64,000 bases of DNA from Methanoculleus horonobensis (GTDB lineage Archaea; Halobacteriota; Methanomicrobia; Methanomicrobiales; Methanoculleaceae), in assembly GCF_001602375.1 (NCBI RefSeq), contig NZ_BCNY01000013.1:248001-312000 (forward strand), read 5' to 3'. Both the position numbers and the translations under genes were made by a program. Under the pieces are notes generated by a model. That model was not told where the DNA came from. It searched no databases and worked only from the letters and a program-made list of their open reading frames with translations. Each line of letters opens with the position of its first letter. Position 1 is the stretch's first letter. Shown here in pieces: positions 9,475 through 55,040 of this stretch.

Positions 9475-9588
9475 GAGGGGCCCGCGTATCTCCCACGATA
9501 CTTTGCGGTTACAGAGAGTGAATACGGGGGGAAAGACACCTTCCAGCGGCATGCATGGCAGATGAGCAGAGGCTAACGGTTCACGCCC

Positions 9589-9688
9589 ATAGTGCTCTCA
9601 CGCTCCCGTCCTGCAGACAGTCGCGACCCGCACCTAACAGTGCTCACGCTCCTGTCCTGCAGACAGTCGCGACTGCAACGTCGCTTAC
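9589..9688. repeat. Two direct copies of a ~49-bp hairpin unit
   Basis: GTGCTC(TC)ACGCTCC-GTCCTGCAGACAG-TCGCGAC occurs at about 9592 and again at about 9641. On the minus strand each copy reads GCGACTGTC-TGCA-GGACAGGAGCGTGAGCAC, the same linker/hairpin layout as the repeats elsewhere in the window, here with the stem CTGTC/GACAG. Confidence 0.75.
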
Positions 9689-9692
9689 GTAC

Positions 9693-10109
9693 ACGGATTT
9701 CCATCGAATATCGCCAATAGGGGGAGGGGCTGACGGGGAGGGGGGAGCATCCCCCCTCCCCTGTCTCTATCCCATAAAGCTCTACTTGTGACCCCACCTC
9801 ACCCGGCCTCCGGCCTCCTCCTCTGCACCTGCGGTGCTCAAACTCCCGCCGTCCGCTCCGCTCCCGGCAGTCGTTCCCCGCCCCAGAGGGGCGGAGGCAG
9901 TGCGTGGCGATATGCGACTGGCCGAAGGTGCGATGTTCCGGAGGAACGGAGCTGGAACACCATTAGGTGCGAGGTGCGACTGACCGTAGGACAGGAATTT
10001 GATAAGACCGGAGGTCTTCGAGGCGTGAGCGATAGCGAACGTAAGCACCGTCAGGTGCGAGGAACGGAGCATGAGCACCGTCAAGGTGCGATACCCAATG
10101 GAAATCCGT
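9693..10109. mobile_element. Repeat element A with terminal inverted repeats
   Basis: A 417-bp non-coding element. The left end (9693-9714, starting ACGGATTTCCATCG) and right end (10088-10109, ending TGGAAATCCGT) are inverted copies matching at 19 of 22 positions; four more outer bases extend the match with one mismatch. Inside is a core shared with elements B and C: a GGGGAG...CTCCCC hairpin near 9735-9765, the stem GGCC-TCC-GGCC, a GCACC/GGTGC stem, a C-rich/G-rich stem, and then the GGCAGTGCGTGGCGATA segment near 9895. No transposase is encoded, so it would be a non-autonomous, MITE-like element. No clear target-site duplication is visible. Confidence 0.65.
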
Positions 10110-10139
10110 GCACAGGCTTTGCAACAGAGTGAAGAAAAA

Positions 10140-10470
10140 TCGTCCGTACGAAGATGCTTCGCACATCCAAACCCCCACCCTTCGGCGCCTGTTGAACCAG
10201 CGCACCAGCCTCCAGGACTCACCGCTCTAGCAAATGTGCTCGCCGGAGCGCAATACTTCTCCTCACCAGACCCCGCCCCCTCGAAGAACTTCGTTCTTCT
10301 CGTCCTCCTGCCCCCGCACCTCACACCTTCGGTGCTCGAACTCCGTTCCCATGGAACGTCGTTCCTAACGGTGCTCCAACTCCGTTCCGGAGGAACGTCG
10401 CACCTTCGGCCAGTCGCACACCCAACCCTGCACAAGGTATATGTGCTCTCAAGCCTCGATTGACGCGGGC
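10140..10470. repeat. Palindromic repeat cluster, minus orientation
   Basis: Read on the minus strand this is a string of linker-plus-hairpin units: stems GCACC/GGTGC, GTTCC/GGAAC with loops TCC and CATG, and a GAAGAACG-rich palindrome (10285-10305), separated by GGAGTTGGAG- or GGAGTTCGAG-type linkers. It continues element A towards the rhodanese gene. No credible gene lies in it. Confidence 0.7.
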
Positions 10471-10514
10471 TCACCGCCCCCCGGTGAGAGTATCCAGCAT
10501 GAGGTGAGGGAAAA

Positions 10515-11477: not shown

Positions 11478-12254
11478 CCCTTAAATGCCCGGGCAACCGG
11501 CCAAAACCTTTATTTTCTACATTTCCAAAACAGAAACCATTAAATGATAGAATGCACTAGATAGACCTAGAGAGATTTGGATCCACACAAGACACTTCCC
11601 CCCTTGACGTCGTCTTTTCGTGTATCCTCTTCTCTCTAAATGCGACGGGCCGAAGGGTGCGACGCTCCTTAGGAGCAGAGCATGAGAAGGCCGAAGGCCT
11701 TCGAGTCCGGAGCTCAAGAAAACACGAAGTGTTTTCGAGTTGCGAGGTTCCGCAGGAACCGAGCAGGAGCACCGTTCGGTGCGACTTGCGACGGGTCGGA
11801 TCATCACAGGCACAAAACCGCATTTCTTCAAAAATCGCGCTCCACCGCAAGGCAGGTCTCCACGACCCATCACCGCGCTCTGCCGGGAAAACCGTCATTG
11901 GGACAAGCGGTGCCGGTTCGCCTCTTCTCCACTGTACTTCCGGGAAAACTTAATCTCATCCGCCGCCACTACTCTCTTCGTGGATAGCACTGTCGCCGGG
12001 ATCGCTCCCGTGGACGACGAAGATCCCGCCGATCACACGACGGGGAACGCCTTGTCGACATTTCTCACCCCTAAAGACTCGTATTGTCACATAGCGGAGC
12101 ATTGTCTCCATGCGCCTGCCGGCTGCCATGGTGCAGCACCCGCCTTTCTAGGATCGGCTCCCGGGGAGAGCCTCTGGCCGGGCACACGGCATGAAACAGA
12201 TCGGGCACGGGAACTTGCGCGCATCGGCGGAGCCGCCGACGGCCGGACGGAGAG
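11478..12254. other. Long intergenic region with an embedded repeat cluster
   Basis: A 777-bp gap. The first 160 bases are AT-richer than the surroundings and show no ORF or repeat. Bases 11641-11800 are the palindromic cluster listed separately. From 11800 to 12254 I see no credible gene, only a TATA-like GGGAAAACTTAATC near 11941-11954 that could serve DUF389 with a leader of almost 280 bases. Confidence 0.5.
11641..11800. repeat. Palindromic repeat cluster
   Basis: At least five successive hairpins with different stems: GCTCC-TTA-GGAGC, AAGGCC-GAA-GGCCTT, AAAACAC-GAA-GTGTTTT, GGTTCC-GCA-GGAACC and GCACC-GTTC-GGTGC. Linkers of the GAGCATGAG, GGAGCTCAAG, CGAGTTGCGA and GAGCAGGAG type join them. 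Each stem differs in sequence but remains complementary. Confidence 0.8.
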
Positions 12255-26756: not shown

Positions 26757-27192
26757 CCCCATGCAGTGGACCGTGGTTGCCTGCGCACCTTCGCACCTTC
26801 GGTGCGAGGTGGGGCTGACGGGGAGTGCGATGGGCGGAACGCCCGGAGCTCGAGCACCCGGAGGGTGCGGAGTGCGAGCGAAGCGAGCTTGAGCACCGAT
26901 AGGTGCGAAGGGGGCGTGCCCCCTCCCCTGTCTCCACCTTATGTAGCAATATCTGAAAATCCCACCCCGCCCGGCCTTCGGCCTCCTCACCCGCACCTGT
27001 GGTGCCTCAACTCCGCTCCTAACGGAGCGTCGTTCCCCGCCCCAAGGGCGGGGGCAGTCATGGCGATAAGCGACGTTCCGAAGCGCGACGGTTCGTAAGA
27101 ACCGGAGCGTGAGCACCGAAGGTGCGAAGGAACGGAGCTGGAGCACCGTTAGGTGCGATACCCGGTGGAAAGCCGTGCTCTTGGATTGCAAT
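26757..27192. mobile_element. Repeat element B
   Basis: About 436 bp sharing its core with elements A and C: a GGGGCTGACGGGGAGTGCGA left part, CCCCTCCCCTGTCTCC, a GGCC-TTC-GGCC stem, a CGCACC/GGTGC stem, a CGCCCC-AA-GGGCGG stem and GGCGATAAGCGACGTTCC. Its right end (GCGATACCCGGTGGAAAGCC...TTGCAATC) matches the right end of A and, inverted, the left end of C. Its left end (ATGCAGTGGACCGTGG, 26761) matches, inverted, the right end of C. Between the ends are linker-hairpin units with stems CACC/GGTG and GGTTC/GAACC. No transposase. Confidence 0.65.
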
Positions 27193-31120: not shown

Positions 31121-31942
31121 GTGGCAATCCATACACAGCTTTCCGTTGGCTATCGCCACTGGGGGAGGCGGCTCGCGGGGAGTGCGACGGTTCGTAGAAC
31201 CGGAGCTCGAGCACCGGAGGTGCGAGGTGCGATGTTCCGACAGGAACGGAGCACGAGAAGGCCGAAGGCCTTTGAGGTGCGAGCGAAGCGAGCTTGAGCA
31301 CCGGAGGTGCGAGGTGCGATGTTCCGACAGGAACGGAGCACGAGAAGGCCGAAGGCCTTTGAGGTGCGAGCGAAGCGAGCTTGAGCACCGGAGGTGCGAG
31401 GTGCGATGTTCCGACAGGAACGGAGCACGAGAAGGCCGAAGGCCTTTGAGGTGCGAGCGAAGCGAGCTTGAGCACCGGAGGTGCGAGGTGCGATGTTCCG
31501 ACAGGAACGGAGCACGAGAAGGCCGAAGGCCTTTGAGGTGCGAGCGAAGCGAGCTTGAGCACCGGAGGTGCGAGGTGCGATGTTCCGACAGGAACGGAGC
31601 ACGAGAAGGCCGAAGGCCTTTGAGGTGCGAGCGAAGCGAGCTTGAGCACCGGAGGTGCGAGGGGGGGAGCATTCCCCCTCCCCTGTCTCTCCCTCATAAG
31701 ACTATATCTGTAACCCCCACCGCCCGCGCTTCGCGCTCCTCACTCGCACCTTCGGTGCTCAAACTCCTTCCCCAAAGGGGAAGTCGTTCCGCCCCCGGAG
31801 GGGGGCGGGGGCAGTGCATGGCGATAAGCGACGTTCCGGCAGGAACGACTGCCGCAGGACAGGAGTTTGAGAAGCCATCAGGCTTCGAGGAACGGAGCTC
31901 GAGCGCCGGAGGTGCGCAGTCCCCACGGTCCACTGCACGGGA
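31121..31942. mobile_element. Repeat element C (with internal tandem array)
   Basis: About 822 bp, the largest of the three related elements. Its left end (GTGGCAATCC...GCTTTCCGTTGGCTATCGCC) is an inverted copy of the right end of B, and its right end (CCCCACGGTCCACTGCACGG) is an inverted copy of the left end of B. Between them are a five-copy tandem array (31202-31661) and the shared core at 31662-31840: CCCCTCCCCTGTCTC, a GCGCTTCGCGC stem, GCACC/GGTGC, CCCC/GGGG stems and GGCAGTGCATGGCGATAAGC. No transposase gene is present. Confidence 0.65.
31202..31661. repeat. Tandem array, 5 x 87 bp
   Basis: Units begin with GTTCCGACAGGAACGGAGC at 31234, 31321, 31408, 31495 and 31582, exactly 87 bases apart and apparently identical. 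Each carries three clear hairpins (GTTCC-GACA-GGAAC, AAGGCC-GAA-GGCCTT, GCACC-GGA-GGTGC) and a short AAGC-GA-GCTT. Because 87 is a multiple of three, long open frames appear on both strands, but they encode only the repeat. Confidence 0.9.
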
Positions 31943-50121: not shown

Positions 50122-50759
50122 TCAGCCGAGATCGAGATCGCCGCGGCCTTCCGTGAGCCCCTCGATCGCGATGCGGTAGAACGTCTCGAGATCCATGAGC
50201 GGTTCGATCATCCGGATCCTCTTGCGCTCGCAGCCGGCGGCAAACGACTTCTCCTTGAACTTCTTCTTCACCGTCCGGGGGGTGACCTCGTCGATCGCAC
50301 CGCCCTTCACCAGGGCGCAGGCGATGATCAGGCCTGACGCGCTGTCCGCCGCCTGGAGCACAACCTCGACCGGCCGGACGTAATCCCCAAAGAGCATGTG
50401 GTTGTGGCGCCTGACGATATCCGCGATCTCTTCGGATACACCGTTCTCGATCAGAATCCGGTAACCCTCGACACCGTGCCGCTCCTTATCTCCGCCGACG
50501 ATGTCGTAGTCGATGTCGTGCAGAAGGCCGATCACCTCCCACGTCGCGGCATCCTCGCCGAGATGCTCCGCGGCCTTCCTCATGACGGCGGCCGTGGCAT
50601 GGCTGTGCATCGGGCCGAACGCGACCGGCCGAAGGGGGGAACGTGAGCACCGTTAGGTGCGAAGGGCCGTAGCAGCAGCACCGCAGGTGCGACTTGAATG
50701 ATGTGGGACGGCGATGTCACGTAACGCCGGAGCAGGGCCAGTGCCTCGTCTCTCTCCAT
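50122..50759 (-). pseudogene. HD-domain phosphohydrolase gene interrupted by a palindromic repeat
   Basis: The main frame (50122-50610, 162 aa) has the HD signature LLHDIDYDIVGG, then RRHNHMLFGDYVRPVEVVLQ and GCERKRIRMIEP, and is missing its usual N-terminus. Upstream on the same strand, from the ATG at 50757-50759, the first 18 or so residues expected for the family are found in another frame (MERDEALALLRRYVTSPS). Between them lie about 90 bases containing two hairpins of the repeat family (GCACC/GGTGC stems, 50645-50693). The repeat has split and shifted the frame. The remaining ATG at 50610 has no ribosome-binding site, so a shortened protein is uncertain. Confidence 0.75.
50631..50695. 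repeat. Palindromic repeat unit inside the HD gene
   Basis: On the plus strand: CGTGAGCACC-GTTA-GGTGCGA, then GCAGCACC-GCA-GGTGCGAC, the same hairpin/linker pattern as the larger clusters. It lies between the detached N-terminal codons and the rest of the HD gene. Confidence 0.75.
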
Positions 50760-54490: not shown

Positions 54491-54499
54491 CGATGTCTG

Positions 54500-55040
54500 C
54501 CCCGTTAGGGCGCGACGGACGGAACGTTCGGAGCGCGAGCACCGTAGGTGCGAAGGCAGGCGGAGTTCGAGAAAATTGCGCCGCAATTTTCGATGACGAT
54601 GTTCAGCCCGCAACGCTGAACGGAGTTTGAGAAAACGCGAAGCGTTTTCGATGGCGATGTTCTGCCCGCAACGCTGAACGGAGTTTGAGAAAACGCGAAG
54701 CGTTTTCGATGGCGATGTTCTGCCCGCAACGCTGAACGGAGTTTGAGAAAACGCGAAGCGTTTTCGATGGCGATGTTCTGCCCGCAACGCTGAACGGAGT
54801 TTGAGAAAACGCGAAGCGTTTTCGATGGCGATGTTCTGCCCGCAACGCTGAACGGAGTTTGAGAAAACGCGAAGCGTTTTCGATGGCGATGTTCTGCCCG
54901 CAACGCTGAACGGAGTTTGAGAAAACGCGAAGCGTTTTCGATGGCGATGTTCTGCCCGCAACGCTGAACGGAGCTTGAGAAGCCATCAGGCTTCGAAGGC
55001 GACACGTGCCCCGTAAGGGTGCGACGCGTGCCCCGAAGAG
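54500..55040. repeat. Palindromic repeat cluster with 6 x 58 bp tandem array
   Basis: The array spans 54621-54968: CGGAGTTTGAG starts at 54621, 54679, 54737, 54795, 54853 and 54911, each followed by the stem AAAACGC-GAA-GCGTTTT and the spacer CGATGGCGATGTTCTGCCCG. A variant with stem AAAATTGC-GCC-GCAATTTT precedes it (54559), and one with AAGCC-ATCA-GGCTT follows (54969). At 54520-54550 a GCACC/GGTGC unit is present. Unit length is not a multiple of three, so frames shift between copies. Confidence 0.9.

Follow-up and report, generated by a model that had tools for sequence, protein, structure and literature searches.

The window, i.e., the whole 64-kb stretch of Methanoculleus horonobensis DNA that was analysed, harbors short palindromic units in six intergenic clusters, one of which is a single unit. 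A mechanical scan for GA-stem-loop-stem'-GA, the loop being GNA or GNNA, identified 39 units, as against 0-1 in block-shuffled windows (n=10). The features, with window coordinates and the means by which each was recognized, are as follows:

9597..9670, minus strand: two tandem copies of GA-CTGTCT-GCA-GGACAG-GA at a spacing of 46 bp (scan and reading)
9691..10111, unstranded: large foldback with outer stem ACACGGATTTCCAT / ATGGAAATCCGTG (inverted repeat)
9709..9914, unstranded: core of a genome-dispersed repeated element of ~200 bp, bounded by ATATCGCCA / TGGCGATAT (BLAST pile-up)
9913..10090, plus strand: GA-strand hairpin array with stems GTTCC, CACC, AAGACC and GCACC (scan and reading)
10277..10420, minus strand: hairpin array on the opposite strand (scan and comparison with Methanoculleus genomes G012 and G007)
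~11637..11795, plus strand: cluster of GCTCC, AAGGCC, AAAACAC, GGTTCC and GCACC hairpins, one branched tree when folded (scan and fold)
26785..27160, plus strand: cluster with the core element and nested hairpins AGC-GA-CGTTCC{..}GGAACG-GA-GCT (scan and fold)
31170..31920, plus strand: cluster with an 87-bp three-hairpin unit ~5 times in register, then the core element and further hairpins (scan)
50645..50662, plus strand: lone unit GA-GCACC-GTTA-GGTGC-GA (scan)
54491..54996, plus strand: cluster of AAAATTGC, AAAACGC (six copies), CGGACG and GCACC hairpins (scan)

Direct reading of 9589-10470 and of the long intergenic gaps reveals GA directly before and directly after every hairpin stem, as in GA-GCACC-GTCA-GGTGC-GA, GA-GAAAACGC-GAA-GCGTTTTC-GA and GA-TGTTCC-GACA-GGAACG-GA. 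The original prediction had described a linker, a hairpin and a CGA recurring in six clusters, and such a recurrence is indeed seen at 9589-10470 and at five other places, where the stems listed at that time (GCACC, GTTCC, CTGTC, AAGGCC, AAAACGC, AAAACAC, AAAATTGC and AAGCC) are present. The hairpin stands but the CGA motif does not, as its C is the last base of the stem; demanding a literal CGA 3' of the stem misses most units, whereas GA alone recovers them. Thus, a repeat family had been correctly recognized while its grammar, viz., GA on both sides, a C-G closing pair, GNA or GNNA loops and the use of one strand, had been overlooked.

The family extends over the whole genome of M. horonobensis (2.45 Mb), in which GAGCACC-loop-GGTGCGA has 102 exact copies and its reversed control none. 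Unit and locus counts, which cover 1.64 Mb of this genome, gave 203 units, 178 of them outside called genes at 61 loci. When all perfect noncoding hairpins (stem of at least 6, loop of 3-8) were collected from 1.24 Mb irrespective of flank or loop, GA..GA was the top flank pair (79 against 19 for the next) and GNA the leading triloop class, a pattern that is not seen in coding hairpins. We also selected noncoding sites of the form GA N6 GNA N6 GA with no pairing demanded: 18 of the 202 such sites are perfectly paired, with 11 different stems, where 0.40 would be expected with partners redealt, and control flanks or loops gave 0-3 perfect stems. The proposal that stems covary between copies is borne out by these pairing-blind sites and by two alignments, for which only the linker GGAGNNY upstream, the loop and the flanking GAs served to pick the sites. 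The 6-bp class (A2) has a covariation score of 0.610 (shuffled 0.207, sd 0.034; slid registers at most 0.25) and the 7-bp class (A1) a score of 0.350 (shuffled 0.176, sd 0.029; slid registers at most 0.20), with none of 500 shuffles reaching either score; the covariation is strong, yet it carries no formal probability, the alignment rows being related via common words. Many units have such words in common, as with GCACC, which forms the stem in 114 perfect units; the copies thus lack independence, and a shared stem dictionary accounts for part of the covariation. Derivation from a known element of fixed sequence, an outcome that would have spoken against the original prediction, was not what we found, as 50 distinct perfect stems occur under one grammar in the Methanoculleus-wide set.

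Loops and strands bear on the kind of molecule that folds. In the Methanoculleus-wide set, triloops outnumber tetraloops; GNA accounts for 284 of 594 triloop units and GNNA for 121 of 437 tetraloop units, and 341 of 405 units have C as their closing base. The third base of GNNA is T in 52, C in 45, A in 15 and G in 9 cases, so that 80% are GNYA, the opposite of the GNRA of RNA. Loops of the GNA or GNNA type, with any N and with G-C pairs, form extraordinarily stable, nuclease-resistant mini-hairpins in DNA (PMC4686876), and GNA loops contain a sheared G.A pair (PMC6479982). The GNA loop lies on the GA-flanked strand in 72 cases against 4 of the inverted TNC. Both strands are in use at 18 of 39 multi-unit loci and, with respect to genes, 17 loci are in sense and 9 are not (n=26; p=0.17, not significant). 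The GNA triloops, the prevalence of GNYA over GNRA, the use of both strands and the want of a significant gene-strand preference favour a fold of single-stranded DNA over one of RNA, as judged from sequence. As GA flanks and GNA loops share one strand, a symmetric cruciform is not the whole story either. Hence, of the earlier suggestion that a structure is conserved as RNA or as cruciform DNA, the conserved structure stands, RNA is disfavoured and the symmetric cruciform is insufficient. Neighbouring GAs are joined by ~4-nt linkers, and the linkers on either side of a unit pair mutually over at least 4 bp in 60 cases against 18.7 expected, in a symmetric register. We infer that the GA flanks form tandem sheared G.A pairs, the mutual pairing of linkers being counted in support, though GA might rather be a target for insertion or recombination.

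Whole clusters fold as well. The region 9675-10140 forms one branched hairpin with a DNA folding energy of -110.7 kcal/mol (z -7.2; none of 100 shuffles as good), and the folds of 11637-11795 (z -5.5) and 27065-27160 (z -5.2) also surpass shuffles, whereas those of 26800-26915 (z -0.8) and 54500-54640 (z -1.3) are not significantly better. Long-range enclosing stems with GA flanks are not enriched over those with other flanks, and nesting is therefore claimed from linker pairing and single loci only. The ~200-bp core emerges from BLAST matches that pile up and share ends near 9705 and 9910, with hairpin arrays surrounding it; bounded by inverted termini, it has many dispersed copies, and its discreteness suggests that transposition takes part in dispersal.

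The GCACC hairpin word is present in 31 of the 35 Methanoculleus genomes searched and is rare elsewhere in the order. Three Methanoculleus genomes have 87-225 units per Mb, as against 2 units in the 380 kb sampled from six other genera, and among the genomes sampled the variable-stem family is found only in Methanoculleus. No described archaeal repeat of a similar kind was found in the literature searched, in agreement with the earlier statement that none with these linkers had been described.

Comparison of orthologous gaps reveals a rapid turnover. The aligned fraction of the shorter gap is 0.35-0.57 for cluster gaps and 0.99-1.0 for other gaps. The gap that houses the 9589-10470 cluster lacks hairpin arrays in several species, where it spans 167-283 bp, and reaches 1101 bp in others. 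A 32-bp hairpin-plus-linker module has been gained or lost exactly and in register between identical flanks (near-repeats GGAGTTYGAG), and at one orthologous place three species (loci L223, L222 and L220) have the stems CTGCCG, CGTTCC and TCC, respectively. The 54491-54996 cluster is expanded relative to the orthologous gaps of genomes G006 and G003, and the ~5 repeats of the 87-bp unit at 31181-31660 are absent from the orthologous gap of the same two genomes. In one clean case the loop GACA is replaced by its inverse, TGTC, between orthologues with the stems unchanged, which is a signature of template switching. Template switching in hairpins has been documented to homogenize arms and invert spacers, with both arms altered at once (PMC8604942, PMC8794818). 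The inference that compensatory change means that the structure matters consequently holds for the covariation itself, and selection does not follow from it, for template switching changes both arms together. The part at 10277..10420 is identical at 149 of 150 positions to genomes G012 and G007, the flanking genes being ~92% identical. Between G012 and G007, the intergenic cluster (counterpart of window 9475-10514) is identical over ~700 bp while the adjoining genes are ~91% identical, which suggests a recent exchange between species, provided that a chimera in the G012 assembly, which consists of 310 contigs, is excluded. Two contigs of the M. horonobensis assembly (C7 and C11) start within 46-bp tandem arrays of GAGCACCGCAAGGTGCGA, with at least 3 and at least 11 copies, respectively; these arrays probably break the assembly. 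A replication-strand bias was also considered and rejected, as the complete unit list for G003 shows mixed strands.

The reading that we prefer, and consider moderately probable, is that of a Methanoculleus-specific intergenic mosaic of palindromic modules with a BIME/REP-like layout, whose identity resides in a fold of single-stranded DNA and which is reshaped by slippage and template switching. To the grammar, covariation, strand coherence and between-species turnover of clusters and modules, all of which are observed, it adds that the units would fold inside the cell, that a putative engine would consist of template switching together with slippage, and that no host function would be required. 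One strand would carry GA-stem-GNA/GNNA-stem'-GA units joined by ~4-nt linkers. When the DNA becomes single-stranded, as in replication, repair or uptake, the GA strand would snap into mini-hairpins with loops closed by sheared G.A pairs. The repeated GA-linkers would then allow slippage or recombination between them, leading to in-register gain and loss of modules, and template switching across hairpins would copy one arm into the other, such that both sides change together and the loop is sometimes inverted. Hairpin DNA would persist where it is least harmful, away from promoters; a host function is not needed, and roles in stabilizing or halting downstream of genes may exist. As loop inversion is rare, template switching alone would not keep the strand coherence, and selection or strand-biased copying would be needed in addition. 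A possible though doubtful variant is a sequence-free selfish or functional family, in which modules are kept for the hyper-stable GNA/GNNA mini-hairpins of one strand, joined by tandem G.A steps, and are exchanged via single-stranded DNA, with the letters of the stem being free.

The units or the ~200-bp ATATCGCCA..TGGCGATAT element might alternatively be non-autonomous transposons of the MITE or REP type that a transposase moves in trans, with GA as the target or its duplication. The discrete core with its common ends, inverted termini and many copies, the orthologous gaps that are filled in some species and near-empty in others, and the GA that flanks every unit at either end agree with this. 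However, the Y1/HUH transposase of the IS200/RAYT type (PF01797) has no match in the M. horonobensis genome, which rules against IS200/RAYT mobilization there, nor in 28 of the 35 Methanoculleus genomes. Six genomes exceed the cut-off and, apart from the unit-rich G017, they have 0-3 GCACC units each. No clean target-site duplication was found upon comparing filled with near-empty orthologous gaps, and module gain or loss lies between direct repeats, for which slippage suffices. We regard transposition in trans as an unlikely account of the family. Genome G033 has 19 Y1 matches, several of them broken, and zero copies of the GCACC hairpin word. A role for reverse transcriptase was likewise rejected, RVT_1 being present in only 3 of the 35 genomes and without a match in M. 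horonobensis. The Rad50 zinc-hook model PF04423 has no match over the cut-off in the 35 Methanoculleus genomes; it does match M. jannaschii and Sulfolobus but also misses E. coli, and is hence uninformative.

RNA elements, i.e., transcribed 3' regions whose hairpins have a role in termination, in mRNA stability or in the binding of protein (with GA/GA as a kink-turn-like tandem G.A), could explain why the loci shun divergent gaps (4 of 61 loci against 153 of 537 gaps, p=9e-5) and favour convergent ones. RNA folds of the clusters likewise beat shuffles, the GA strand tolerates T.G/G.T pairs (48) above A.C/C.A pairs (19), and the majority of loci with a gene orientation are in sense. Nevertheless, the GNYA tetraloops and more numerous triloops, the use of both strands with its non-significant sense bias, and the quick turnover of composition between species all speak against RNA, as do the Rfam models, which matched only two tRNAs in the window and none of the hairpin family; we consider this explanation improbable. 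It is highly improbable that the hairpins are a pure product of mutation, built and kept by template switching and slippage at palindromes with neither selection nor mobility, for while the GACA/TGTC inversion (a published signature; PMC8604942), the tandem expansions and the in-register module loss between direct repeats are of the expected kind, the single grammar (C-G closure, GNA loops, 72:4 coherence at 61 loci), the restriction to one genus and the dispersed core element are left unexplained.

The preferred reading, a mosaic of modules recognized by a single-strand fold, has partial precedents. Like the Methanoculleus units, REP/BIME elements are short palindromes of intergenic DNA that occur singly or in clusters, on either strand and away from promoters, and their subfamilies have alternative complementary stem letters (PMC3733652). 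Unlike them, the Methanoculleus units lack the GTAG tag in the flank census, any one-sided tag and a fixed family sequence, and have a GA at either end, loops of the GNA/GNNA type, modules that are nested and in tandem, and no Y1 match in the M. horonobensis genome. With the GTAG tag, the fixed consensus and RAYT all absent, they are not REPs by the definition applied; they do have the features of a BIME-like mosaic, being intergenic, clustered palindromes of mixed orientation with linkers. CGTC-tagged REPs are also palindromes without a dedicated transposase (PMC3733652), but differ in fixed stems of 8-9 bp with AT ends, loops of 4-5 nt and CCA tails; CGTC can also occur on the TC strand of the units here, solely as a stem end, CG, adjoined by TC, the GA flank of the other strand. 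The ~200-bp core resembles MITEs in its inverted ends and many dispersed copies, whereas the hairpin arrays reach beyond the core, and the orthologous gaps compared gave no clean target-site duplication. Extraordinarily stable DNA mini-hairpins are known from synthetic oligonucleotides and from parts of aptamers. The units share with the d(GCGAAGC) type a GNA/GNNA loop with any N and C-G closure (PMC4686876), and here a whole genomic repeat family has such loops. Evolution by template switching (quasipalindrome correction) similarly entails stem changes on both sides and spacer inversion (PMC8604942, PMC8794818), but is known from scattered events and not from a dispersed family with one grammar. 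Structured RNAs with GNRA tetraloops differ from the units at the third loop base.

The units are a naturally occurring repeat family whose stems covary according to statistics unbiased by pairing, and whose grammar indicates single-stranded DNA in preference to RNA; they caution that compensatory change is by itself no proof of a functional RNA. The conserved property appears to be the shape of DNA rather than its sequence, in hundreds of hairpins in the intergenic gaps of Methanoculleus. The family would offer a tractable archaeal system in which to study how palindromes arise, spread and stay paired, be it by selection or by template switching.

The 17-mer GAGCACCGNAGGTGCGA has bacterial matches, and a family spanning phyla was considered and rejected: several matches, in coding sequence, look like chance, and that of Dictyobacter is one fixed element without variable stems. 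GAGCACCGNAGGTGCGA occurs 66 times in Dictyobacter aurantiacus, in most cases with AAAACC directly after it and with a variable loop base N, and 9 times in D. kobayashii; this element looks unrelated to the variable-stem family. A Myxococcales MAG (G239) has 32 copies of the GNA-loop 17-mer, with triloops throughout.
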